From Microbacterium caowuchunii (GTDB lineage: Bacteria; Actinomycetota; Actinomycetes; Actinomycetales; Microbacteriaceae), in assembly GCF_008727755.1 (NCBI RefSeq), contig NZ_CP044231.1, positions 2,418,001 through 2,482,000 of the forward strand: 64,000 bases of DNA, written 5' to 3'. This document shows positions 43,108 through 55,001 of the stretch, one piece after another. Every line of letters starts with the position of its first letter. Within the stretch, counting starts at the first letter, position 1. Under the pieces are notes generated by a model. It saw only the letters and a program-made list of their open reading frames with translations. It was not told the origin of the DNA and searched no databases. Both the position numbers and the translations under genes were made by a program.

Positions 43108-44580
43108 TTACGCGAACGGGTCGGCCGTGAGCGTGTACTTCGTCTGCAGGTACTCGTGGATGCCCTCTGCGCCGCCCTCGCGGCCGAGGCCGGAGAACTT
43201 CCAGCCGCCGAAGGGGGCCGCCGCGTTCGACACGACGCCCATGTTCAGGCCCATCATCCCCGTCTCGAGCCGCTCGATCATGCGCTGCCCGCGAGCGAGG
43301 CTCTCCGTGTAGACGTAGGACACGAGGCCGTACTCGGTGTCGTTCGCGAGCCGCACGGCGTCGTCCTCGTCGTCGAAGGGGATGATGGCGAGGACCGGTC
43401 CGAAGATCTCCTCGCGCAGGATGTCGCTACCCGCGGGCACGTCGCTGATGACGGTGGGCTCGTAGAAGGTCCCGGGACGGTCGATCGCCCGGCCGCCGGT
43501 GCGGAGGGTGGCACCGCGCCCGACGGCGTCCTCGACCAGCTGCGCCGCCTTCTCGACCGCGCGGTCGTCGATGAGCGGACCGATCGTGACGCCGTCCTCG
43601 GTACCCCGGCCGATGCCGAAGCCGTTCACGCGCTCCGTCACACGGCGGGCGAACTCGTCGGCCACCGCACGATGCACGATGAACCGGTTGGCTGCTGTGC
43701 AGGCCTGGCCGATGTTGCGGAACTTCGCGGCGATCGCCCCCTCGACCGCCTTGTCCAGGTCCGCGTCGTCGAACACCACGAACGGCGCGTTCCCGCCGAG
43801 CTCCATCGAGGTGCGGAGCACACCCGATGCGGCCTGCTCCAGCAGTCGCTGTCCCACCGGCGTGGACCCGGTGAAGGAGAGCTTCCGCAGACGCGGATCC
43901 CGGATGATCTCCTCGGACACGGAACCCGAGGACGTGGTGGTCACCACGTTCACCACGCCTGCGGGAAGCCCCGCGTCCTCCAGCAGCTTCGCGAACGCGA
44001 GGGTGGTCAACGGGGTCAGCCCGGCAGGCTTGACCACGACCGTGCACCCGGCGGCGAGGGCGGGGGCGATCTTCCGTGTCGCCATCGCCAGCGGGAAGTT
44101 CCACGGGGTGATCAGGTAGCACGGCCCCACCGGATGCTGCGACACGATCATGCGGCCGGTGCCTTCCGGGTTCGGGCCGTACCGCCCCTGGATGCGGGAC
44201 GCCTCCTCGCTGAACCAGCGCAGGAACTCGCCACCGTAGGCCACCTCCCCACGCGCCTCCGCGAGCGGCTTGCCCATCTCCAGCGTCATCAGCAGCGCGA
44301 AGTCCTCCTTGCGCTCCTGCAGCAGGTCGAAGGCGCGACGCAACAGCTCCGCACGCTCGCGCGCCGGGGTCGCCGCCCACGCCGGGAACGCGTCGACCGC
44401 AGCATCCAGGGCGGCCTTCCCGTCCGCCACGGACGCCGAGGCGATCGTCTTGATCGTCTCGCCGTTCGACGGATCCTGGACGGTGAACGTCGCCCCGTCC
44501 TGGGCGGGACGCCACCGTCCGCCGATGAACAGTCCGTCGGGCACATCCGCCAGCAGCTCGGTCTCCCTGTTCGGGGTCAT
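43108..44580 (-). CDS. gabD: NAD(P)-dependent succinate-semialdehyde dehydrogenase
   Basis: 490 residues of the aldehyde dehydrogenase family. TPWNFPLAMATRKIAPALAAGCTVVVKPA binds the cofactor, MELGGNAPFVVFDDAD carries the general-base Glu, and IGQACTAANRF has the catalytic Cys294. The pattern GNAPF rather than GKSP is typical of GabD. It oxidises succinate semialdehyde to succinate. This is exactly the aldehyde made by HpaI (54198-55001), so it can complete the homoprotocatechuate pathway even though it is 9.6 kb away and leftward. Confidence 0.88.
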   Translation of the reverse strand: MTPNRETELLADVPDGLFIGGRWRPAQDGATFTVQDPSNGETIKTIASASVADGKAALDAAVDAFPAWAATPARERAELLRRAFDLLQERKEDFALLMTLEMGKPLAEARGEVAYGGEFLRWFSEEASRIQGRYGPNPEGTGRMIVSQHPVGPCYLITPWNFPLAMATRKIAPALAAGCTVVVKPAGLTPLTTLAFAKLLEDAGLPAGVVNVVTTTSSGSVSEEIIRDPRLRKLSFTGSTPVGQRLLEQAASGVLRTSMELGGNAPFVVFDDADLDKAVEGAIAAKFRNIGQACTAANRFIVHRAVADEFARRVTERVNGFGIGRGTEDGVTIGPLIDDRAVEKAAQLVEDAVGRGATLRTGGRAIDRPGTFYEPTVISDVPAGSDILREEIFGPVLAIIPFDDEDDAVRLANDTEYGLVSYVYTESLARGQRMIERLETGMMGLNMGVVSNAAAPFGGWKFSGLGREGGAEGIHEYLQTKYTLTADPFA

Positions 44581-44841: not shown

Positions 44842-46494
44842 ATGCCCACCGTCTCCGCCCATGTCGCCATCACCCTGGCCCGCCACATCCGAGAGGTCTT
44901 CGGGGTGATGGGAAACGGCAACGCCTACTTCCTCGATGCGCTGGAGCGGGAGACCGACGCGACGTACACCGCCGTGCGGCACGAGGCCGGTGCGGTCATC
45001 GCCGCGGACGCGTACCACCGGACCGGCGGAGGCCTCGGCGCGGCGACCGCGACGTACGGAGCCGGGTTCACGAACACCCTGACCGCCCTCGCCGAGGCGG
45101 TGCAGGCCCACGTGCCGCTGGTGCTCGTGGTGGGCGATGAACCGACATCGGGGCCGCGTCCCTGGGATGTGGACCAGATCGCCCTGGCCTCCGCGGTCGG
45201 CGCCCGCACCTACACCGTGGGGCGTACGGATGCGGCCGCCACCACCGCCATCGCGATCGAGCACGCGCTCTCCTACCGGGTACCCACCGTGCTCGCCATC
45301 CCCTACGACGTCGCGCGGCTGGAGGCGGGGCCCGTGCCGGCCACCCCCGCACCCGCCCTGCCCCCGGCGCACGGCATCGAGGGCGAGTTCGCGGCGCACG
45401 CCGTCCGTGAGCTCGCCGGCGCCCTCGCCCTGGCCGAGCGCCCGGTGCTGATCGCGGGCCGCGGCGCGTGGCTGTCCGGGGCGGGCGAGGCGCTCGGCGC
45501 ATTGGCCGACGCCACCGGGGCGCTGACGGCGACCACGGCGCTCGGGCGCGGGGTCTTCCCGGACGACCGGTTCGACCTCGGGGTCACCGGCGGATTCGGG
45601 GCGGAGGGCGCGATGGCCCTCGTCCGCTCTGCCGACGTCGCCGTCGTCTTCGGGGCCTCGCTGAACCAGTTCACGATGCGGTTCGGGGAACTCTTCGACC
45701 CGCGCACGCGCGTCGTCCAGGTCGATCTCGCCCCCGCCGCGACGCATCCGCACGTCGGGGGGTTCATCCGCGCCGACGCCGCCGTGGTCGCGCAGGAGCT
45801 CGTCCAGGAGCTGCGCCGGACCGGCGCATCCGCGTCCGGGTGGCGGGAGACGGTGGATGTGGCGGCCGCCCGGAGGCAGGACGGCGCCGCGGAGTTCGCC
45901 CCGGACGGCCGGCTGGATCCGCGCGCGGCCGCGATCCGCATCGCCGAGCTCCTCCCCGAGGACCGGGTGGTCGTCTCCGACGGGGGGCATTTCATCGGGT
46001 GGGCGAACATGTACTGGCCGGTGGCGGCATCCGACCGGATGGCGATGATCGGCACCGCGTACCAGTCCATCGGCCTGGGGATGGCGAGCGTCCCGGGCGC
46101 CGCCCGCGCACGCCGGGATGCCACGATCGTCCTGACCACGGGCGACGGGGGCGCACTGATGGCGTTGGCGGACCTCGAATCCGCCGTGCGGGTCGCGGCG
46201 GGACGGGGCATCGGCGTCGTCTGGAACGACGCCGCGTACGGCGCGGAGGTGAACCTCTACGGGCTGAAGGGTCTCGCGACCGAGCCCATGCTGATCCCCG
46301 AGGTGGACTTCGCGGGGCTCGCGACCGCCGTGGGGGCGGAGGGCGTCGTCGTGCGCCGGCTCGACGACCTCGGCGTCCTGCGCGACTGGGCCGGGCGCCC
46401 CGCCTCCGAACGGCCCTTCCTCCTGCTCGACCTGCGCATCTCGGGCTCGGTCATCGCGCCGTACCAGCAGGAGGTCATCCGGGTGAACTCCTGA
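44842..46494 (+). CDS. Thiamine-diphosphate-dependent enzyme (decarboxylase/synthase type)
   Basis: 550 residues with the three POX/AHAS-type domains. The catalytic Glu48 lies in RHEAGAVIAADAYHRT. The cofactor motif TTGDGGALMALADLE...IGVVWNDAAYGAEVN (about 432-475) is complete. It resembles acetolactate synthase, benzoylformate decarboxylase and phenylpyruvate decarboxylase; the sequence alone does not choose. Next to an aromatic-degradation cluster, decarboxylation of an aromatic 2-oxo-acid would fit. The start at 44842 (MPTVSAHVAITLARHIREVFG) matches the family N-terminus; the frame stays open upstream only as an antisense shadow of gabD. Confidence 0.82.
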   Translation: MPTVSAHVAITLARHIREVFGVMGNGNAYFLDALERETDATYTAVRHEAGAVIAADAYHRTGGGLGAATATYGAGFTNTLTALAEAVQAHVPLVLVVGDEPTSGPRPWDVDQIALASAVGARTYTVGRTDAAATTAIAIEHALSYRVPTVLAIPYDVARLEAGPVPATPAPALPPAHGIEGEFAAHAVRELAGALALAERPVLIAGRGAWLSGAGEALGALADATGALTATTALGRGVFPDDRFDLGVTGGFGAEGAMALVRSADVAVVFGASLNQFTMRFGELFDPRTRVVQVDLAPAATHPHVGGFIRADAAVVAQELVQELRRTGASASGWRETVDVAAARRQDGAAEFAPDGRLDPRAAAIRIAELLPEDRVVVSDGGHFIGWANMYWPVAASDRMAMIGTAYQSIGLGMASVPGAARARRDATIVLTTGDGGALMALADLESAVRVAAGRGIGVVWNDAAYGAEVNLYGLKGLATEPMLIPEVDFAGLATAVGAEGVVVRRLDDLGVLRDWAGRPASERPFLLLDLRISGSVIAPYQQEVIRVNS

Positions 46495-46515: not shown

Positions 46516-48399
46516 TCAGACCGCGGCACTCTCGCGCGCCGGCACCATCTGCTGCGCGAAGAAGTCGGCGAGTTCGGTCGTCGCCCCCAGCGGAAGCACG
46601 TGCGCGACGTACTGGTCCGGGCGCACCACCACGACCGCTCCGGAGGGAGCGATGCCCCGCAGTGCGAAGATGTCGGCATCGGGATGGACGGCGTAGATCT
46701 TCTCGTAGTCGACGAGTCCGAACGGCCCCACCCGGGGCAGGAAGATCGGCGGGATCCCGCTCATCTCGACGTCGGCATGCGACCGCGGGTACACGACCTT
46801 GACGTCGAAGACGCTGTCGATGTCGGCGCCCTCGGGAGTGAACCTGCGTACAGGCGATCCGTCCGCCGTCGCCAGCCACTGCGCCCATCCGGCGAGCGCC
46901 ACCGCGTCCCGGTCGGCGAAGGCGTAGATCCGCCAGCGGCCGTCGGCGCGGGCGTGGTGTCCGAGATGGGCCGGCACCGCGTCGCCGATGCGGACGACCG
47001 GCGCGGACTTCAGGCGTTTACCGATCGGGAACCCGGAGGCGAGTTCCTGATGCGTCGCCTCGCCCACGATCATGGAGGGCGGATACTGGGTCATGAAGCC
47101 CGCGGGGAACTCGGCGGTGCGCGTGTAGAACTCGGCGAGATCCTCGGGGCTGTTGAACTCCTCCGGCTTCTTCGCCATCAGCGTCGACCATTCCCGGTCG
47201 AAGTCGATGAGGTTCTGTGCGATCACCTGCCGCTCGGCGGAGTAGGTGCCCAGGAGCGACTCGGGTGCACGCCCGCTCAGCACCGAGCCGAGTTTCCAGC
47301 CCAGGTTGAAGCCGTCCTGCATGGACACGTTCATCCCCTGCCCCGCCTTCGCACTGTGGGTGTGGCATGCGTCACCGCAGATGAACACGTGCGGGGTGCG
47401 CGACGAACCCGAGCCCACGTCGTCGAACCCGTCGGTGACCCGGTGCCCGACTTCGTAGACGCTCCACCACGCGACGTCCTTCACGTCCAGCGCATAGGGA
47501 TGCAGGATGTCGTTCGCCTTCGCGATGATGGCCGCGAGCGGCGTCGCGCGGATCCGCCCGTCGTCACCTTCCGGCACCTCGCCGAGGTCCACGTACATCC
47601 GGAAGAGATGACCGCCTTCGCGGGGGATGTGGAGGATGCTGCCGGCACGGGACTGGATCGCGCACTTGATGCGGATGTCGGGGAAGTCGGTGACGGCCAG
47701 CACGTCCATGACGCCCCACGCGTGGGCGGCCTGCCCCCCGATGTGCCGACGCCCGATGGCCTCGCGCACGCGACTGCGCGCGCCGTCGCAGCCGACGACG
47801 TAGCCGGCACGGATCGTGCGCTCCCGTCCCTCGTGTTCCCCTGCGACGTCGCGCAGTGTGACAGACACGGGGCGATCCCCCTCGCCGACGGTGAGCCCGA
47901 CGAACTCGACACCGTAGTCGGGGGTGACCCGGGCGGGAGCGACCGCCGCGACCTCGGCGAAGTAGTCCAGCACACGGGCCTGATTGACGATCAGGTGCGG
48001 GAACTCGCTGATGCCGTGCGGATCGTCCGCCGCCCGCGCGGTACGGACGATGTTCTCGGGACGCTCGGGGTCCGGGGTCCAGAAGTTCATCTCGCAGATG
48101 CGGTACGCCTCGGCGGCGATGCGCTCGGCGAACCCGAAGGCCTGGAAGGTCTCGACGCTGCGCGCCTGGATCCCATCCGCCTGACCGATCGCGAGGCGCC
48201 CCGGACGCTTCTCGACGAGGCGGGTGGTGAGGGAGGGATACTGCGCGAGCTGGGCCGCGAGGAGCATGCCGGCCGGTCCCGACCCCACGATGAGGACGTC
48301 GACCTCCTCCGGGATCTCCTCCGGGCGCTCGACGCCGGTGCCGGCGGCAGGCTGCACCCGCGGATCGGTGGAGACGTAACCGTGGTGGTGGAACTGCAT
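46516..48399 (-). CDS. mobA: Aromatic FAD monooxygenase, MobA (3-hydroxybenzoate 4-monooxygenase) type
   Basis: 627 residues. MQFHHHGYVS at the start, VLIVGSGPAGMLLAAQLA (FAD, about 35-52), AIGQADGIQARSVETFQAFGFAERI, SEFPHLIVNQARVLDY, GAWGVMDVLAVTDFPD-like AWGVMDVLAVTDFPDIR, and ICGDACHTHSAKAGQGMNVSMQDGFNLGWKL (about 340) match MobA of Comamonas closely from memory. The thioredoxin-like C-terminal domain of phenol hydroxylases is present. It adds an ortho hydroxyl to a phenol. In this cluster the product may be 3,4-dihydroxyphenylacetate rather than protocatechuate. AAGGA is 8 bases before the ATG; MPM at 48405 is an alternative. Divergent from the FAH-RraA gene. Confidence 0.85.
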   Translation of the reverse strand: MQFHHHGYVSTDPRVQPAAGTGVERPEEIPEEVDVLIVGSGPAGMLLAAQLAQYPSLTTRLVEKRPGRLAIGQADGIQARSVETFQAFGFAERIAAEAYRICEMNFWTPDPERPENIVRTARAADDPHGISEFPHLIVNQARVLDYFAEVAAVAPARVTPDYGVEFVGLTVGEGDRPVSVTLRDVAGEHEGRERTIRAGYVVGCDGARSRVREAIGRRHIGGQAAHAWGVMDVLAVTDFPDIRIKCAIQSRAGSILHIPREGGHLFRMYVDLGEVPEGDDGRIRATPLAAIIAKANDILHPYALDVKDVAWWSVYEVGHRVTDGFDDVGSGSSRTPHVFICGDACHTHSAKAGQGMNVSMQDGFNLGWKLGSVLSGRAPESLLGTYSAERQVIAQNLIDFDREWSTLMAKKPEEFNSPEDLAEFYTRTAEFPAGFMTQYPPSMIVGEATHQELASGFPIGKRLKSAPVVRIGDAVPAHLGHHARADGRWRIYAFADRDAVALAGWAQWLATADGSPVRRFTPEGADIDSVFDVKVVYPRSHADVEMSGIPPIFLPRVGPFGLVDYEKIYAVHPDADIFALRGIAPSGAVVVVRPDQYVAHVLPLGATTELADFFAQQMVPARESAAV

Positions 48400-48467
48400 C
48401 GGCATGGTCCTTCCCGGGGAGGACTCCGTCGTCCCTTCCCCGCCGCTCCGCGGTCCGCCGGGACGGT

Positions 48468-48512
48468 TGCCGCAGATGCCCCAGATCATATACGATCCTC
48501 TGCAACACGCAA
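48468..48512. promoter_or_regulatory. Back-to-back promoters sharing one GntR-type operator
   Basis: Rightward: TTGCCG (48468-48473), 17 bases, TACGAT (48491-48496). Leftward: TTGCGT (48512-48507), 16 bases, TATGAT (48490-48485). The two -10 boxes sit side by side and together make ATCATATACGAT (48485-48496), a near-perfect palindrome with the TATA(C/T) core common for FCD-GntR sites. One bound repressor would block both the hydroxylase and the catabolic operon. Confidence 0.7.
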
Positions 48513-48526
48513 GAGCGAGGGAGCTC

Positions 48527-50008
48527 ATGACCTCAGACGGCATCGACGCGGATGCGGCGGACCCGCGCTTCCGCGCGCTCCCCCGGCGTCCCGGCAAGAT
48601 CATCGCCGTCCACCTCAACTACGCGTCCCGCGCGGACCAGCGCGGACGACGTCCGGCGCACCCCTCGTACTTCCTGAAACCCTCGAGCTCCGTCGCGGCC
48701 ACCGGAGGGACGGTCGAGAGACCCGCAGGCACCGAGTTGCTCGCCTTCGAGGGGGAGATCGCCCTCGTCATCGGAGACCCGGCCCATCGCGTCGACTCCG
48801 GATCCGCCTGGGATCATGTCGCATGGGTGACGGCGGCGGACGACCTGGGCCTCTACGACCTCCGCGCGAACGACAAGGGGTCGAACCTGCGCTCCAAGGG
48901 CCGCGACGGCTTCACGCCCCTCGGACCGGGCCTGATCGACGCGCGCACCGTCGATCCCGCGATGCTCCGGGTGCGCACCTGGCTGAACGGGGAGATCGTG
49001 CAGGAGGACACCACCGCCGGTCTCCTGTTCCCGCTTCCGCAGCTGGTCGCGGACCTCTCCCAGCACCTGACCCTCGAGACCGGGGACGTCATCCTCACCG
49101 GCACCCCGGCCGGCTCCTCCGTGGCCGCGCCCGGTGACGTCATCGAGGTCGAGGTGGACGTCCCGGGCGGACCCCGCACGGGACGACTCGTCACCACGGT
49201 GGTCGACGGCGACCGGGGATTCGACCCCGGGCTGGGCTCGCTGCCGAGCACGGACGACGCGCAACGCGAGGACGCCTGGGGATCCCGTGCCGCGGCGGGA
49301 CTGCCGCCCATCGGCCCGACGCTCTCCCCGGCCCTCCGCGCGAAGCTCGAGCAGGTGCCGGTCGCCGCCCTCTCGCAACAGCTGCGCAGACGCGGTCTCG
49401 ACGACGTGACCATCGACGGGGTCCGTCCGATGCATCCTGACCGCCGGCTCATCGGCACGGCCCGAACACTGCGGTTCGTCCCGCTGCGGGCGGACCTGTT
49501 CGCCGCGCACGGGGGCGGGTACAACGCGCAGAAGCGCGCCTTCGACGCGGTGGGCGCGGGTGAGGTCATCGTGATCGAGGCCCGCGGGGAGACGGGATCC
49601 GGCACGCTCGGCGACATCCTCGCCCTCCGCGCACACGCCCGCGGAGCAGCGGGCATCGTGACCGACGGCGGCGTCCGGGACCACGACGCCGTCGCGGCGG
49701 TCGGCCTCCCCGTCTACAGCGCGGGCGCGCACCCCGCGGTGCTCGGACGCAAGCACGTTCCCTGGGATCTCGACGTGACGATCGGATGCGGCGGCACCAC
49801 GGTGCAGCCGGGTGACATCATCGTCGGCGACGCGGACGGGGTCATCGTGGTGCCGCCCGCCCTCGCCGAAGAGGTCGTGGACGCCGCGCTCGCCCAGGAG
49901 TCGGAGGACGCCTGGATCGCCGCCCGCGTCGCCGAGGGGAATCCGATCGAGGGACTCTTCCCGATGAACGCCGCCTGGCGCGCCCGCTACGACGGGGAGC
50001 GGCGGTGA
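48527..50008 (+). CDS. Fusion of fumarylacetoacetate-hydrolase-type and RraA-type domains
   Basis: 493 residues from the ATG with GAGGGAGCTC before it. Residues about 20-260 are a FAH/HpaG-type domain: KIIAVHLNYASRA, KPSSSVAATGG, LLAFEGEIALVIG, and metal ligands around ANDKGSNLR and LETGDVILTGTPAGSS. Residues about 290-490 are an RraA/HMG-aldolase-type domain: GTARTLRFVPLR, GEVIVIEARGETGSGTLGDILALRA, GAAGIVTDGGVRDHDAV, and GDADGVIVVPPALAEEV. HpaG enzymes normally have two FAH halves that decarboxylate and isomerise the pathway intermediate. RraA relatives decarboxylate beta-keto acids. This pairing may replace a missing step. Confidence 0.85.
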   Translation: MTSDGIDADAADPRFRALPRRPGKIIAVHLNYASRADQRGRRPAHPSYFLKPSSSVAATGGTVERPAGTELLAFEGEIALVIGDPAHRVDSGSAWDHVAWVTAADDLGLYDLRANDKGSNLRSKGRDGFTPLGPGLIDARTVDPAMLRVRTWLNGEIVQEDTTAGLLFPLPQLVADLSQHLTLETGDVILTGTPAGSSVAAPGDVIEVEVDVPGGPRTGRLVTTVVDGDRGFDPGLGSLPSTDDAQREDAWGSRAAAGLPPIGPTLSPALRAKLEQVPVAALSQQLRRRGLDDVTIDGVRPMHPDRRLIGTARTLRFVPLRADLFAAHGGGYNAQKRAFDAVGAGEVIVIEARGETGSGTLGDILALRAHARGAAGIVTDGGVRDHDAVAAVGLPVYSAGAHPAVLGRKHVPWDLDVTIGCGGTTVQPGDIIVGDADGVIVVPPALAEEVVDAALAQESEDAWIAARVAEGNPIEGLFPMNAAWRARYDGERR

Positions 50009-50691
50009 CCGGCATCGTGCTCAGCAAGTCCGAACGCGCCTATCAGTGGGTGCGCGGCCGGATCACCGGGCGCGAGTACGCCGCCGGACACCGTCTGGTG
50101 CTCGGCACCATCGCCGACGAGCTCGAGATGAGCGTCGTCCCGGTGCGTGAGGCCATCCGGCGCCTCGAGGCGGAAGGGCTGGTGAGCTTCGAGCGCAACG
50201 TCGGCGCACGCGTGGTGTTCCTCGATGAGAGCGAGTACGTCTTCGCGATGCAGACCCTCGGCCTCGTGGAGGGATCCGCCACCGCACTCTCGGCGCCCCT
50301 GCTCACGGCGGAGGACCTGGATCGTGCCCTGGCCGTCAACGACCGGATGCAGGCGCTCCTCGACGACTTCGACCCGCACGAGTTCACCCGCCTCAATCAG
50401 CGGTTCCACTCCGTCCTCTACGAACCGTGCCCGAATCCGCACCTGCTGGATCTCGTGCACCGCGGATGGGGGCGGCTCGCGCACCTGCGGGACAGCTCCT
50501 TCGCCTTCGTGCCCGGTCGCGCACGGCACTCCGTCGCCGAGCACGTCGAGATCATCCGGCTCATCCGCTCCGGTGCCGATCCGCTCGAGATCGAGCTGGC
50601 GGCACGCAACCACCGCTGGCGCACGATGGACGCCTTCCTCGCCGCTCGTCGTGACGACGGGACCGCACCGAACCCCTCGGAGACACCATGA
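50005..50691 (+). CDS. FCD-type GntR regulator of the homoprotocatechuate cluster
   Basis: 228 residues from a GTG in a GTGA overlap. Winged helix at about 8-72 (AYQWVRGRITGREYAAGHRLVLGTIADELEMSVVPVREAIRRLEAEGLV). The FCD domain follows with Asp (NDRMQALLDDFD region), His (NQRFHSVLYEP), His (HVEIIRLI) and His (AARNHRWRT) in the usual ligand positions. It lies inside the operon it probably represses and most likely binds the palindrome at 48485-48496. The effector should be a pathway acid. Confidence 0.85.
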   Translation: MTGIVLSKSERAYQWVRGRITGREYAAGHRLVLGTIADELEMSVVPVREAIRRLEAEGLVSFERNVGARVVFLDESEYVFAMQTLGLVEGSATALSAPLLTAEDLDRALAVNDRMQALLDDFDPHEFTRLNQRFHSVLYEPCPNPHLLDLVHRGWGRLAHLRDSSFAFVPGRARHSVAEHVEIIRLIRSGADPLEIELAARNHRWRTMDAFLAARRDDGTAPNPSETP

Positions 50692-52250
50692 CCGACAGCT
50701 CCGCACCGGCCCCTGGGCGGCACGTCCCCGAGGGGCTTCCGGAACGCATCCGGCACTACATCGACGGGGCCCTCGTCGACTCGATCGACGGCGCCACATT
50801 CGACGTGCTGGAGCCCGTGTCGAACGAGGTGTACGTCCGGGCCGCCGCCGGCCGGGAGGCCGACATCGCGTCGGCCGTCGCTGCCGCCACGCGGGCCTTC
50901 GACGAGGGGCCCTGGCCCCGGATGCTGCCCCGCGAACGCTCCCGCATCCTGCACCGCATCGCGGACATCGTCGAGTCCCGCGACGCCCGGCTCGCCGAGC
51001 TGGAGTCGTTCGACTCGGGCCTGCCGATCACGCAGGCCCTCGGCCAGGCCCGCCGCGCAGCCGAGAACTTCCGCTTCTTCGCCGATCTGATCGTGGCCCA
51101 GGCCGACGACACGTTCAAGGTGCCGGGTCGGCAGATCAATTACGTCAACCGCAAGCCGATCGGCGTGGCCGGACTCATCACGCCGTGGAACACGCCGTTC
51201 ATGCTCGAGTCGTGGAAGCTCGGCCCCGCGCTCGCGACGGGCAACACCGTGGTGCTCAAACCCGCCGAGTTCACGCCGCTGTCCGCATCCCTCTGGCCGG
51301 AGATCTTCGAGGAGGCGGGGCTGCCGCGGGGCGTGTTCAACCTCGTCCACGGGCTGGGCGAGGAGGCCGGCGACGCACTCGTGCGGCACCCCGGCGTGCC
51401 GCTCATCTCCTTCACCGGCGAGAGCCGCACGGGCCAGCTCATCTTCGCCAACGCCGCCCCGTTCCTCAAAGGCCTGTCGATGGAGCTCGGCGGCAAGAGC
51501 CCCGCGATCGTGTTCGCCGACGCCGATCTGGACGCCGCGATCGACGCCACGATCTTCGGCGTGTTCTCGCTCAACGGCGAGCGCTGCACCGCCGGATCCC
51601 GCATCCTCGTCCAGCGGGAGGTGTACGACGAGTTCGTCGAGCGGTACGCCGCCCAGGCGGAACGCGTCAGAGTCGGCTACCCGCACGACCCGGAGACCGA
51701 GGTCGGCGCGCTCGTGCACCCGGAACACTTCGCGAAGGTCATGCGCTACGTCGAGATCGGCAAGTCCGAAGGGCGGCTGGTCGCCGGCGGCGGACGGCCG
51801 GAGGGCTACGCGTTCGGCAACTTCGTCGCCCCCACGGTCTTCGCGGATGTCCCTCCGGACGCGCGGATCTTCCAGGAGGAGATCTTCGGCCCGGTCGTGT
51901 CGATCACCCCGTTCGACACCGAGGAGGAGGCGCTCGCCCTCGCGAACGACACGAAGTACGGTCTCGCCGCCTACGTGTGGACGAACGACCTGAAACGGGC
52001 GCACAACGTCGCTCAGGCGATCGAGGCCGGCATGGTGTGGCTGAACTCGAACAACGTCCGTGACCTGCGCACACCGTTCGGCGGGGTGAAGGCCTCGGGT
52101 CTCGGCCACGAGGGCGGATACCGCTCGATCGACTTCTACACCGACCAGCAGGCCGTGCACATCACGCTCGGCGACGTGCACAACCCCACCTTCGGCAAGC
52201 ACCCGTCCCCGGACGAGGTCGCCGCCGCATCCGCGGATGCCGAGAGCTGA
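50688..52250 (+). CDS. hpaE: 5-carboxymethyl-2-hydroxymuconate semialdehyde dehydrogenase
   Basis: 520 residues. Aldehyde dehydrogenase motifs: LITPWNTPFMLESWKLGPALATGNTVVLKPAE, MELGGKSPAIVFADADLD with the Glu, and FSLNGERCTAGSRILV with catalytic Cys300. NGERCTAGSR and the C-terminal NVRDLRTPFGGVKASGLGHEGG are typical of HpaE. It oxidises the ring-cleavage semialdehyde to the tricarboxylate. ATGA overlap with the regulator shows tight coupling. The tail of about 20 residues is Ala/Ser-rich. Confidence 0.92.
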   Translation: MTDSSAPAPGRHVPEGLPERIRHYIDGALVDSIDGATFDVLEPVSNEVYVRAAAGREADIASAVAAATRAFDEGPWPRMLPRERSRILHRIADIVESRDARLAELESFDSGLPITQALGQARRAAENFRFFADLIVAQADDTFKVPGRQINYVNRKPIGVAGLITPWNTPFMLESWKLGPALATGNTVVLKPAEFTPLSASLWPEIFEEAGLPRGVFNLVHGLGEEAGDALVRHPGVPLISFTGESRTGQLIFANAAPFLKGLSMELGGKSPAIVFADADLDAAIDATIFGVFSLNGERCTAGSRILVQREVYDEFVERYAAQAERVRVGYPHDPETEVGALVHPEHFAKVMRYVEIGKSEGRLVAGGGRPEGYAFGNFVAPTVFADVPPDARIFQEEIFGPVVSITPFDTEEEALALANDTKYGLAAYVWTNDLKRAHNVAQAIEAGMVWLNSNNVRDLRTPFGGVKASGLGHEGGYRSIDFYTDQQAVHITLGDVHNPTFGKHPSPDEVAAASADAES

Positions 52251-52273
52251 GCCCAGAGAGCAAGGACGCTGAC

Positions 52274-53431
52274 ATGACCCGTCTCGACGCCCGCACCCCC
52301 ACCTCGTCGGGCTTCTCCGTCTCGCAGGAGGCGCCGATCCACTCCGACGACCCGATCCCGACGCCGATGGCACCGGCGCCCGACATCCTCCGCTGCGCCT
52401 ACATGGAACTCGTCGTCTCCGATCTCGCCGCATCCCGCTCGTTCTACGTGGACGTCCTCGGGTTGTACGTCACGGAGGAGGATGCGGATGCGGTGTACCT
52501 GCGTACCACCGAGGAGTTCATCCACCACAACCTCGTGCTGCGCCGGGGACCGGTGCCCGCCGTCGCGGCGTTCTCCTACCGGGTGCGCACCCCGGAGGAC
52601 CTCGACCGGGCGGTCGCGTTCTACACCGAACTCGGCTGCCGCGTCGTGCGTCGCCCGGACGGCTTCACCCGCGGCATCGGCGACTCCGTGCGTGTGGAGG
52701 ACCCGCTCGGCTTCCCCTACGAGTTCTTCCACGACACCCGGCACGTCGAACGGCTCTCCTGGCGCTACGACCTGCACACCCCGGGCGAGCTGGTGCGGCT
52801 GGACCACTTCAACCAGGTCACCCCCGACGTGCCGCGGGCGGTGAAGTTCATGCAGGACCTGGGCTTCCGGGTGACCGAGGACATCCAGGACGACGAGGGC
52901 ACCGTGTACGCGGCCTGGATGCGGCGCAAGCCCACCGTGCACGACACCGCGATGACCGGTGGGGACGGACCGCGGATGCACCACATCGCGTTCGCCACCC
53001 ACGAGAAGCACAACATCCTCGCGATCTGCGACAAGCTCGGCGCGCTGCGCATGTCGGACCGCATCGAGCGTGGCCCGGGCCGCCACGGCGTGTCCAATGC
53101 GTTCTACCTGTATCTGCGCGACCCCGACGGACACCGCGTGGAGATCTACACGCAGGACTACTACACCGGCGACCCGGACAACCCGGTCATCACCTGGGAC
53201 GTCCACGACAACCAGCGTCGCGACTGGTGGGGAAACCCCGTCGTGCCCTCCTGGTACACCGAGGCCTCCCTGGTGCTCGACCTGGACGGCGAACCGCAGC
53301 CGGTGACCACTCGCACCGACGCCAGCGAGATGGCGGTCACGATCGGTGCGGACGGCTTCTCCTACACCCGCCCCGAGCCTGCGGCACCCGTGGTCGCGCA
53401 GGGCGAGTACAAGCTCGGGAACCAGCTCTGA
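52274..53431 (+). CDS. hpaD: 3,4-dihydroxyphenylacetate 2,3-dioxygenase (type I extradiol)
   Basis: 385 residues of the vicinal-oxygen-chelate fold, close in length to the Brevibacterium and Arthrobacter enzymes. Metal ligands are His178 (LDHFNQVTPD), one of His236/His237 (MHHIAFAT), and Glu290. The extradiol signature HGVSNAFYLYLRDPDGHRVE is complete, beginning at His271. It opens the ring of homoprotocatechuate between C2 and C3, using Fe(II) or Mn(II). The 35-residue N-terminal extension is Pro/Ser-rich. AAGGA precedes the ATG; stop overlaps hpaH by one base. Confidence 0.93.
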   Translation: MTRLDARTPTSSGFSVSQEAPIHSDDPIPTPMAPAPDILRCAYMELVVSDLAASRSFYVDVLGLYVTEEDADAVYLRTTEEFIHHNLVLRRGPVPAVAAFSYRVRTPEDLDRAVAFYTELGCRVVRRPDGFTRGIGDSVRVEDPLGFPYEFFHDTRHVERLSWRYDLHTPGELVRLDHFNQVTPDVPRAVKFMQDLGFRVTEDIQDDEGTVYAAWMRRKPTVHDTAMTGGDGPRMHHIAFATHEKHNILAICDKLGALRMSDRIERGPGRHGVSNAFYLYLRDPDGHRVEIYTQDYYTGDPDNPVITWDVHDNQRRDWWGNPVVPSWYTEASLVLDLDGEPQPVTTRTDASEMAVTIGADGFSYTRPEPAAPVVAQGEYKLGNQL

Positions 53432-54213
53432 TGGATGCCGGGACGATCGCGTCGATCGCGGCGGAACTCGCCGAGGCCGACCGCACCCGGGGCGTGATCC
53501 CGCGCATCACCGCGCGCCACCCGGACGCGACCGTCGATGACGCGTACGCGATCCAGGCGGTGTGGCGGGACTCCCGGATCGCCGCGGGCCGTCGCCTGGT
53601 CGGCCGGAAGATCGGCCTCACGTCCAAAGCCATGCAGCAGGCGACCGGGATCAGCGAGCCGGACTACGGCGTCATGTTCGACGACACCGTCTGGCAGAAC
53701 GGGTCCGTCATCCCGTTCGACGACTTCTCGAACGTGCGGGTCGAGGTCGAGCTCGCCTTCGTCCTCAAGGAGCCGCTGGAGGGTCCGGACTGCTCGCTGT
53801 TCGACGTGCTGCGGGCGACGGAGTACGTGACCCCCGCGCTCGAGGTGCTGAATTCGCACGTCGCGCTCGAGGGCCGGACGATCGTCGACACGATCGCCGA
53901 CAACGCCGCGTACGGGGGGATGGTGCTCGGCGGCAACCCGATGCGCCCGGACCGGATCGACCTGCGCTGGGTGTCCGCGCTGCTGTACCGCAACGAGTCG
54001 ATCGAGGAGACCGGTGTCGCCGCCGGCGTCCTCAACCACCCCGCCACCGGCGTGGCCTGGCTGGCGGACAAGTTCCACCAGCACGGCGCGCGCCTGGAGG
54101 CCGGCGAGATCATCCTGGCCGGGTCGTTCACCCGGCCGATCGCGGTCTCCCGCGGTGACAGCATCCTGTGCGACTACGGACCGATGGGGACCATCACATG
54201 CCGCTTCACCTGA
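53431..54213 (+). CDS. hpaH: 2-oxo-hept-4-ene-1,7-dioate hydratase
   Basis: 260 residues of the FAH-related hydratase family (MhpD/HpaH). DDAYAIQAVWRDSRIAAGRRLVGRKIGLTSKAMQQATGISEPDYGVMFDD is diagnostic, followed by VEVELAFVL (metal-binding Glu pair) and GEIILAGSFTRPIAVSRGD. It adds water to the dienoate to give 4-hydroxy-2-oxoheptanedioate, the substrate of HpaI. Overlaps hpaD by one base and hpaI by 16 bases. Confidence 0.92.
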   Translation: MDAGTIASIAAELAEADRTRGVIPRITARHPDATVDDAYAIQAVWRDSRIAAGRRLVGRKIGLTSKAMQQATGISEPDYGVMFDDTVWQNGSVIPFDDFSNVRVEVELAFVLKEPLEGPDCSLFDVLRATEYVTPALEVLNSHVALEGRTIVDTIADNAAYGGMVLGGNPMRPDRIDLRWVSALLYRNESIEETGVAAGVLNHPATGVAWLADKFHQHGARLEAGEIILAGSFTRPIAVSRGDSILCDYGPMGTITCRFT

Positions 54214-55001
54214 GCGCGACCCTGCGTCACCGCATCGCCGCATCCGACCGCCCCCTCTTCGGCGGGTGGATCTGCTCCGGGTCACCGGTGCTGGCCGAGA
54301 TCATGGCGGGATCCGGTCTCGACTGGCTGATGATCGACATGGAGCACGGGCCGAACTCGCTGGAGAGCGTGCAGGTGCTGCTTCAGGTGACCGCCGCGTA
54401 CCCGGTCACGACGGTCGTGCGCGTACCCGCGAACGACGCCGTGTGGATCAAGCGGGTGCTGGACGTCGGCGCCCAGACGATCATGGTGCCGATGGTGTCC
54501 ACCGCCGAGCAGGCGGCCGAGGCCGTCGCGCACGCGTCGTACCCGCCGAGGGGGCACCGGGGAGTCGGCAATGCCCTCGCCCGATCCGGCCGCTGGAACC
54601 GCGTGGCCGACTATCTCGCGAACGCGGCCGAATACACGTCGGTGATCGTGCAGATCGAGACGGCGGAGGGCGTCGAGAACGCCGAGGCGATCGCGGGGAC
54701 GCCCGGGGTCGACGGGGTGTTGATCGGCCCCAGTGACCTCGCCGCATCCATGGGCCTCATCGGGCAGCAGACGCATCCGGATGTCGTCTCCGCGGTCGAG
54801 CGCGCCTTCGCCGGCGTACGGGCCGCCGGGAGACCCGTCGGCGTGAACGCGTTCGCCGAGTCCGCGGCGAAGGGCTACGCCGCCGCCGGCGCGGAGTTCC
54901 TGCTCGTCGGAGCCGATGTGAGCCTGGTCGCGCGCGGCGCGGAGTCCCTCGCCCGCACGTTCCTCCCCGCCGCCGACCCCACCCCCCACCCCTCGTCCTG
55001 A
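54198..55001 (+). CDS. hpaI: 4-hydroxy-2-oxoheptanedioate aldolase
   Basis: 267 residues of the HpcH/HpaI class II aldolase family. FGGWICSGSPVLAEIMAGSGLDWLMIDMEHGPN, VRVPANDAVWIKRVLDVGAQTIMVPMV, YPPRGHRGVG, VQIETAEGVENAEAIAGTPGVDGVLIGPSDLAASMG are the metal and pyruvate-binding motifs in order. It cleaves the C7 hydroxy-oxo-diacid to pyruvate and succinate semialdehyde. The ATG at 54198 lies within the hpaH end. Last gene of the operon; a family B palindrome starts 15 bases later. Confidence 0.93.
   Translation: MPLHLSATLRHRIAASDRPLFGGWICSGSPVLAEIMAGSGLDWLMIDMEHGPNSLESVQVLLQVTAAYPVTTVVRVPANDAVWIKRVLDVGAQTIMVPMVSTAEQAAEAVAHASYPPRGHRGVGNALARSGRWNRVADYLANAAEYTSVIVQIETAEGVENAEAIAGTPGVDGVLIGPSDLAASMGLIGQQTHPDVVSAVERAFAGVRAAGRPVGVNAFAESAAKGYAAAGAEFLLVGADVSLVARGAESLARTFLPAADPTPHPSS

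Follow-up and report, generated by a model that had tools for sequence, protein, structure and literature searches.

A divergently transcribed gene of Microbacterium caowuchunii encodes a MobA-type flavoprotein hydroxylase which, judged from sequence comparison, very probably makes 3,4-dihydroxyphenylacetate (homoprotocatechuate) for the hpa operon that it faces. The gene lies in the window, by which we mean the whole analysed stretch of 64,000 nucleotides (contig NZ_CP044231.1, positions 2,418,001 to 2,482,000). 4-Hydroxyphenylacetate is probably its main substrate, in which case the enzyme would replace the two-component 4-hydroxyphenylacetate 3-monooxygenase HpaBC. The enzyme family, its clade apart from that of MobA, its linkage to HpaD across genomes, the displacement of hpaCB in a few loci and the genome-wide absence of HpaB were computed; from the last three, together with an operator region shared with the operon, we infer the supply of homoprotocatechuate. 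4-Hydroxyphenylacetate fits better than the 3-isomer because of the exchange with HpaBC, a linked thiamine pyrophosphate (TPP) enzyme and the Gram-positive tyrosine route. A single flavin enzyme, in place of HpaBC, appears to open hydroxyphenylacetate breakdown in many soil actinobacteria. The features of the locus are as follows.

46516..48399 (alternative start 48405), reverse strand: MobA-type single-component flavin adenine dinucleotide (FAD) hydroxylase (PF01494 and PF07976; NF006144, 991 bits)
48400..48526, no strand: divergent intergenic stretch between the hydroxylase gene and the hpa operon, read from the sequence, its extent varying with the hpaG start used
48485..48496, no strand: GntR-type palindrome ATCATATACGAT, predicted operator, of a motif class that recurs upstream of hpaG-like genes
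48527..50008 (or from 48476), forward strand: HpaG-like fusion of a fumarylacetoacetate hydrolase (FAA) and an RraA-like domain (PF01557, PF03737 and NF009399 above cut-off)
50005..50691, forward strand: GntR/FCD transcriptional regulator (PF00392, PF07729)
50688..52250, forward strand: HpaE (TIGR02299, 652.8 bits against a cut-off of 638.35)
52274..53431, forward strand: HpaD, 3,4-dihydroxyphenylacetate 2,3-dioxygenase (TIGR02295, 431 bits against a cut-off of 321.4)
53431..54213, forward strand: HpaH, 2-oxohept-4-ene-1,7-dioate hydratase (TIGR02312, 357.1 bits against a cut-off of 351.5; the scan began at 53464)
54198..55001, forward strand: HpaI-like aldolase (PF03328; TIGR02311, 278.5 bits, below the cut-off of 368.8)
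44842..46494, forward strand: TPP enzyme, candidate aromatic 2-oxoacid decarboxylase (PF02776, PF00205 and PF02775 on the fragment P0003 of the gene)
43108..44580, reverse strand: aldehyde dehydrogenase (ALDH), candidate succinate-semialdehyde or hydroxyphenylacetaldehyde dehydrogenase (best NCBIfam model TIGR01780, succinate-semialdehyde dehydrogenase, 580.2 bits, below the cut-off of 646.35)

The operon runs in the order hpaG-like, gntR, hpaE, hpaD, hpaH, hpaI. HpaE, HpaD and HpaH all scored above the equivalog cut-offs in a scan with the curated NCBIfam models, in agreement with an earlier note on this DNA that had recognised these three and HpaI from the sequence; HpaI was recognisable while scoring below its cut-off. 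The operon described there was correct and incomplete, since the HpaG-like fusion and the GntR/FCD regulator also belong to it. The TPP and ALDH genes adjoin the hydroxylase gene, outside the part considered in that note, and no IclR gene was found beside the hydroxylase gene in the window. The hydroxylase start was placed at 48399 or 48405 and not at the end of the open frame (48618).

The complete one-contig genome (3,262,719 bases) gave no match in a PF03241 search for HpaB, in which four of 14 control genomes were positive; HpaC was not searched for genome-wide. The absence of HpaB, noted earlier for the window, therefore holds for the whole genome, and HpaB encoded elsewhere was ruled out as the entry enzyme. 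The counter-explanation offered at the time, a complete HpaBC and protocatechuate pathway elsewhere, is excluded for its HpaB part, the search not having extended to protocatechuate dioxygenases.

Co-occurrence with HpaD was examined in two overlapping samples, of 249 genomes of the family and 297 of the order. In the family, HpaD was counted at 67% identity or more, excluding nine matches near 40% (the sole match in three genomes), and the MobA-type enzyme at 57% or more, excluding five genomes with matches of only 50–56%; the counted genes include a few split or partial ones (G142, G222, G227 and G240). HpaD was present in 92 of the 249 genomes, the enzyme in 85 and both in 84 (Fisher p = 1e-55, ignoring kinship). 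The pairing is not a local oddity: 84 of the 92 family genomes with HpaD carry the enzyme. By hand count, at least ten genera hold both genomes with the two genes and genomes with neither (g1, g6, g7, g8, g12, g18, g49, g54, g74 and g78). Five of the eight HpaD genomes that lack the enzyme encode a PF03241 protein 8.0–8.4 kb from HpaD (G019, G075, G103, G138 and G170); the other three (G012, G206 and G113) are 77–82% complete, and in two of them a different contig encodes a PF03241 protein. The sole family genome with the enzyme and without HpaD (G156) is 88% complete, and the contig concerned measures 5.3 kb. Where HpaB lies within 10 kb of HpaD the enzyme is absent from five of seven genomes, and otherwise it is present in 82 of 85 (Fisher p = 2e-5). 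HpaB near HpaD together with the enzyme was found in G064 (enzyme adjacent), G190 (enzyme far off) and, at order level, G443.

Within the order, where the enzyme was counted at E ≤ 1e-120 (a threshold that admits four genomes without HpaD, with matches of at most 58%: G392, G410, G528 and G533), HpaD was found in 79 genomes, the enzyme in 83 and both in 78. With the family of the window removed these figures become 60, 64 and 59. The only HpaD genome of the order sample without the enzyme (G463) has hpaBC adjoining hpaD; in G411, which has the enzyme without HpaD, the contig ends beside hpaG and dapA. Entry through a MobA-type enzyme very probably holds generally across the sampled order. A further 50 named genomes were picked for carrying the enzyme, and 47 of them had HpaD at 73% identity or more.

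The hydroxylase and the hpa operon share a promoter region, as had been proposed, and the GntR-type palindrome ATCATATACGAT lies in the common intergenic stretch. The pattern was drawn up after the site of the window had been seen; of 90 hpaG-like genes, 52 have a site of this class upstream, and 50 rounds of shuffling gave 0.0 on average. Such a site also precedes the hydroxylase gene in 22 of 52 loci where hpaG lies no more than 2.5 kb away, in one of 18 where it is farther off and in two of 76 that have no hpaG. These counts indicate that the predicted operator belongs to the hpa promoter and is shared by the hydroxylase gene mainly when the two are adjacent. The position of the palindrome also makes 48527 the more likely hpaG start than 48476. 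A putative IclR operator near the hydroxylase gene (ATACGTA) was discarded, as no sites remained once the coding bases were trimmed from 30 to 20; it is most likely the coding start (Gly-Tyr-Val).

In a few loci the MobA-type gene stands where hpaCB stands in others. Four loci (L087 to L090) have the order hpaD-hpaE-dapA-gntR-hpaG-iclR with hpaC-hpaB-ALDH divergent, and L091 is alike apart from the missing ALDH gene. In two Georgenia loci (L187 and L195) the order is hpaH-hpaD-hpaE-gntR-hpaG-MFS-iclR, with a TPP gene before iclR in L195 only, and MobA-type-ALDH is divergent. The genes hpaG, dapA, hpaE, hpaD, TPP and iclR are common to L114 (with HpaBC) and L115 (with the MobA-type enzyme). All three HpaB proteins tested pass TIGR02309. 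The mean identity of the IclR proteins was 56.1% across hydroxylase types (258 pairs), 54.1% among MobA-type loci (903 pairs) and 67.2% among HpaBC loci (15 pairs); for the ALDH neighbours it was 74.2% across types, 81.0% among MobA-type and 80.7% among HpaBC loci.

The hydroxylase (627 residues) matched PF01494 (207.2 bits) and PF07976 (177.7 bits), both above cut-off, and is 50% identical to MobA, the Comamonas testosteroni 3-hydroxybenzoate 4-hydroxylase. The best matches of its predicted fold (mean predicted local distance difference test score 75.9) were the entries 2DKI and 2DKH, with template-modelling scores of 0.85 and 0.87 and a root-mean-square deviation of 6.1. Its earlier assignment as a divergent MobA-type FAD hydroxylase is borne out. 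Usable sequence was obtained from 160 of 181 loci for the alignment; the tree was calculated from 77 of 162 rows by a quick method with Shimodaira–Hasegawa-like approximate likelihood-ratio (SH-aLRT) support and without bootstrap, and its groups were named from the alignment. A branch with an SH-aLRT value of 100 separates MobA and 13 locus sequences from the window enzyme and 62 others, so that the enzyme does not group with Comamonas MobA. The genome encodes one further PF07976 protein, 56% identical to the hydroxylase, and this paralogue falls on the MobA side.

The MobA residues that bind the phenolic hydroxyl and clamp the carboxylate were taken from the structural descriptions in PMC3546652 and PMC9304392. 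All 146 hpa-side sequences, the window protein included, and all 14 MobA-side sequences have D75, H135, K247, I260 and Y271; L258 is kept in 145 of 146 and 13 of 14, respectively. Near-fixed changes from the MobA to the hpa side include A78Q, M84T, V136L and Q321H, and V136L adjoins the clamp residue H135. The pocket comparison suggested in the earlier note thus points to a phenolic acid as the probable substrate; the residues are silent on which.

The hydroxylase would act as a class A flavoprotein of the phenol-hydroxylase/MobA fold that runs the entry to the homoprotocatechuate pathway in place of HpaBC. In class A chemistry NAD(P)H reduces the FAD, a C4a-hydroperoxide is formed and the substrate is hydroxylated. 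4-Hydroxyphenylacetate is the commoner tyrosine metabolite. Tyrosine may be transaminated, decarboxylated (the linked TPP enzyme being a candidate for this step) and converted by aldehyde oxidation to 4-hydroxyphenylacetate; the hydroxyphenylacetate would then be hydroxylated ortho to its hydroxyl group to give 3,4-dihydroxyphenylacetate, which HpaD would cleave. The TPP enzyme was found at E ≤ 1e-90 in 73 of the 249 family genomes, with HpaD present in 67 of these and absent from six, and its gene accompanies both hydroxylase types (L114 and L115). An attempt to read its substrate from solved structures was dropped, the best matches being mixed TPP enzymes near 100 bits. The ALDH was likewise dropped as proof of a hydroxyphenylacetaldehyde route, since the succinate-semialdehyde dehydrogenase model TIGR01780 fits it best.

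Gram-positive tyrosine catabolism through homoprotocatechuate was described by Sparnins and Chapman (1976) and Blakley (1977), as cited in PMC2991359 and PMC3534580. Arthrobacter arilaitensis uses tyrosine, and its genes for 4-hydroxyphenylacetate 3-monooxygenase and 4-hydroxyphenylpyruvate oxidase are given as 'not located' in PMC2991359. According to PMC3534580, tyrosine, 4-hydroxyphenylacetate and homoprotocatechuate support growth of Arthrobacter sp. Rue61a and 3-hydroxybenzoate does not; the strain also fails to hydroxylate phenol. For Rhodococcus ruber, PMC6498646 lists a homoprotocatechuate cluster that includes a 4-hydroxyphenylacetate 3-monooxygenase and a flavin oxidoreductase, which indicates that an HpaBC-like system is in use in other actinobacteria. 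Among the named Paenarthrobacter relatives, L118 and L120 also hold a PF03241 protein, and L122 does not.

The wider proposal, to which we give an even chance, is that a large clade annotated as phenol 2-monooxygenase or 3-hydroxybenzoate 4-monooxygenase supplies the 4-hydroxyphenylacetate 3-hydroxylase lacking from the Gram-positive route from tyrosine to succinate, replacing HpaBC non-orthologously and binding a para-substituted acid with the clamp kept, and that the TPP enzyme linked to it supplies the lacking 4-hydroxyphenylpyruvate decarboxylase. If so, a tyrosine-degradation route that has been known since the 1970s would gain its hydroxylase in one enzyme named for other substrates; in at least one Gram-positive bacterium the genes for the hydroxylase and the 4-hydroxyphenylpyruvate step of this route were unlocated (PMC2991359). 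The annotation of many proteins would need correction (all 8000 of the candidates scored matched at E ≤ 1e-60, some possibly of the MobA clade), and catechols could be produced with one protein as an alternative to HpaBC. In the open-licence literature searched, no paper was found that ties a MobA- or phenol-hydroxylase-type enzyme to hydroxyphenylacetate.

Several observations weigh against 4-hydroxyphenylacetate as the substrate or against the replacement of HpaBC. The carboxylate of 3-hydroxybenzoate is meta to the anchored hydroxyl group, which is the geometry of 3-hydroxyphenylacetate and not of 4-hydroxyphenylacetate. There is no anti-correlation between HpaB and HpaD, 25 of the 29 family genomes with PF03241 also carrying HpaD; a PF03241 protein also occurs in 18 of the 84 family genomes with both HpaD and the enzyme and in 24 of the 50 named genomes. 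HpaB and the enzyme thus do not strictly exclude each other. In one cluster (L045 in G064) the MobA-type gene and hpaBC are neighbours, which is what two substrates would lead one to expect. The exchange of hydroxylases is based on six loci. Three of the 50 named genomes have no close HpaD (two have none, and the 46% match of Phytohalomonas was not counted), and two hpa-side tree rows with long or odd branches (L207 and L210) come from genomes without HpaD. The ALDH could be a succinate-semialdehyde dehydrogenase and would then be uninformative on the hydroxylase substrate. Strain Rue61a and A. arilaitensis enter the comparison through their published phenotype or pathway.

The geometry, the retention of the MobA clamp and anchors in 146 of 146 sequences, the co-held PF03241 proteins and L045 would all suit an enzyme that is a 3-hydroxyphenylacetate 4-hydroxylase, with 4-hydroxyphenylacetate, where used, entering through HpaBC or another route. 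We consider this unlikely: it leaves 66 of the 92 family HpaD genomes, in which the enzyme is present and PF03241 absent, without a known entry for 4-hydroxyphenylacetate, and related IclR genes and the TPP gene accompany either hydroxylase. The earlier suggestion of an alternative entry to 3,4-dihydroxyphenylacetate very probably stands, and its choice of 3-hydroxyphenylacetate gives way to the 4-isomer, the clamp keeping the former alive. As an observation apart, L045 offers a natural test of whether each hydroxylase takes a different isomer.

Less probable still is a broad hydroxyphenylacetate hydroxylase acting on both isomers, or an enzyme whose substrate precedes hydroxyphenylacetate by one step (4-hydroxyphenylpyruvate or the aldehyde). 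In those 66 genomes no other hydroxylase candidate for the pathway was found, and the TPP enzyme is linked to the hydroxylase, as such a role would allow; the conservation of the carboxylate clamp speaks against the aldehyde as substrate. That the enzyme is a true MobA, converting 3-hydroxybenzoate to protocatechuate beside the hpa genes by chance, is very improbable: the 50% identity, the identical anchors and the name 3-hydroxybenzoate 4-monooxygenase in some database entries speak for it, and it was rejected on the tree, on gene context (the HpaD co-occurrence in family and order, and none of 13 MobA-clade loci with an hpa-enzyme, IclR, TPP or MFS neighbour, one having a 42% GntR match) and on the MobA-clade paralogue elsewhere in the genome.

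Compared with known systems, the hydroxylase shares fold, domains, length and the hydroxyl- and carboxylate-binding residues with MobA (2DKH), from which it differs in its 50% identity, the supported branch, the near-fixed residue changes and the hpa context. With HpaBC it would share the product and the pathway slot, and the IclR and ALDH neighbours are related, whereas HpaBC (PF03241 plus a flavin reductase) belongs to an unrelated family and the window enzyme is one class A flavoprotein. Trichosporon phenol hydroxylase and Trametes TvMNX3 and TvMNX4 have the same Phe_hydrox_dim fold; the solved structures of phenol hydroxylase and TvMNX3 are 33–34% identical to the window enzyme and come from fungi and other pathways. 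TvMNX3, TvMNX4 and AnPhhA are described in PMC12915361 as converting the para-substituted p-coumarate to caffeate, which makes para-substituted acids possible for this enzyme group. As in homoprotocatechuate (hpa/hpc) meta-cleavage clusters, genes for HpaG, HpaE, HpaD, HpaH and an HpaI-like protein are present in the window; unlike the typical clusters, this genome is without HpaB and its HpaG is the FAA–RraA fusion. A search for the isomerase HpaF (PF02962) gave no match in the genome, but was positive in no control genome. The RraA-like domain of the fusion (48527–50008) might supply a missing isomerase or decarboxylase step.

Beyond the hpa context, 80 named loci chosen by the enzyme alone had HpaD in the fetched flank in 36 cases, IclR in 17, ALDH in 14 and TPP in eight. 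In the 71 enzyme loci without HpaD, the neighbours occurring at least five times were IclR (18), MFS (7), TPP (6) and an ABC-transporter ATPase (5, about 5 kb away), and four further recurrent neighbour genes were restricted to L118–L123. A DapA-family gene is present in the hpa clusters of L087–L092, L114, L115, L117 and L183; HpaH and HpaI were not found within the fetched stretches of these loci, which possibly have a different lower pathway. On a gammaproteobacterial contig of Phytohalomonas tamaricis (L194) the enzyme is 74% identical to the Paenarthrobacter query, with no hpa genes in the flank fetched, and was likely acquired by horizontal transfer. The MobA-clade paralogue of the window genome (locus L003, 346–10270; G000:C1, about 3034346–3044270) has as neighbours PIG-L, PrpF, a glyoxalase-fold (extradiol dioxygenase-like) protein and two GCV_T proteins, and no hpa genes. 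The locus looks like a gallate or methylgallate cluster, in which the paralogue might hydroxylate a benzoate.

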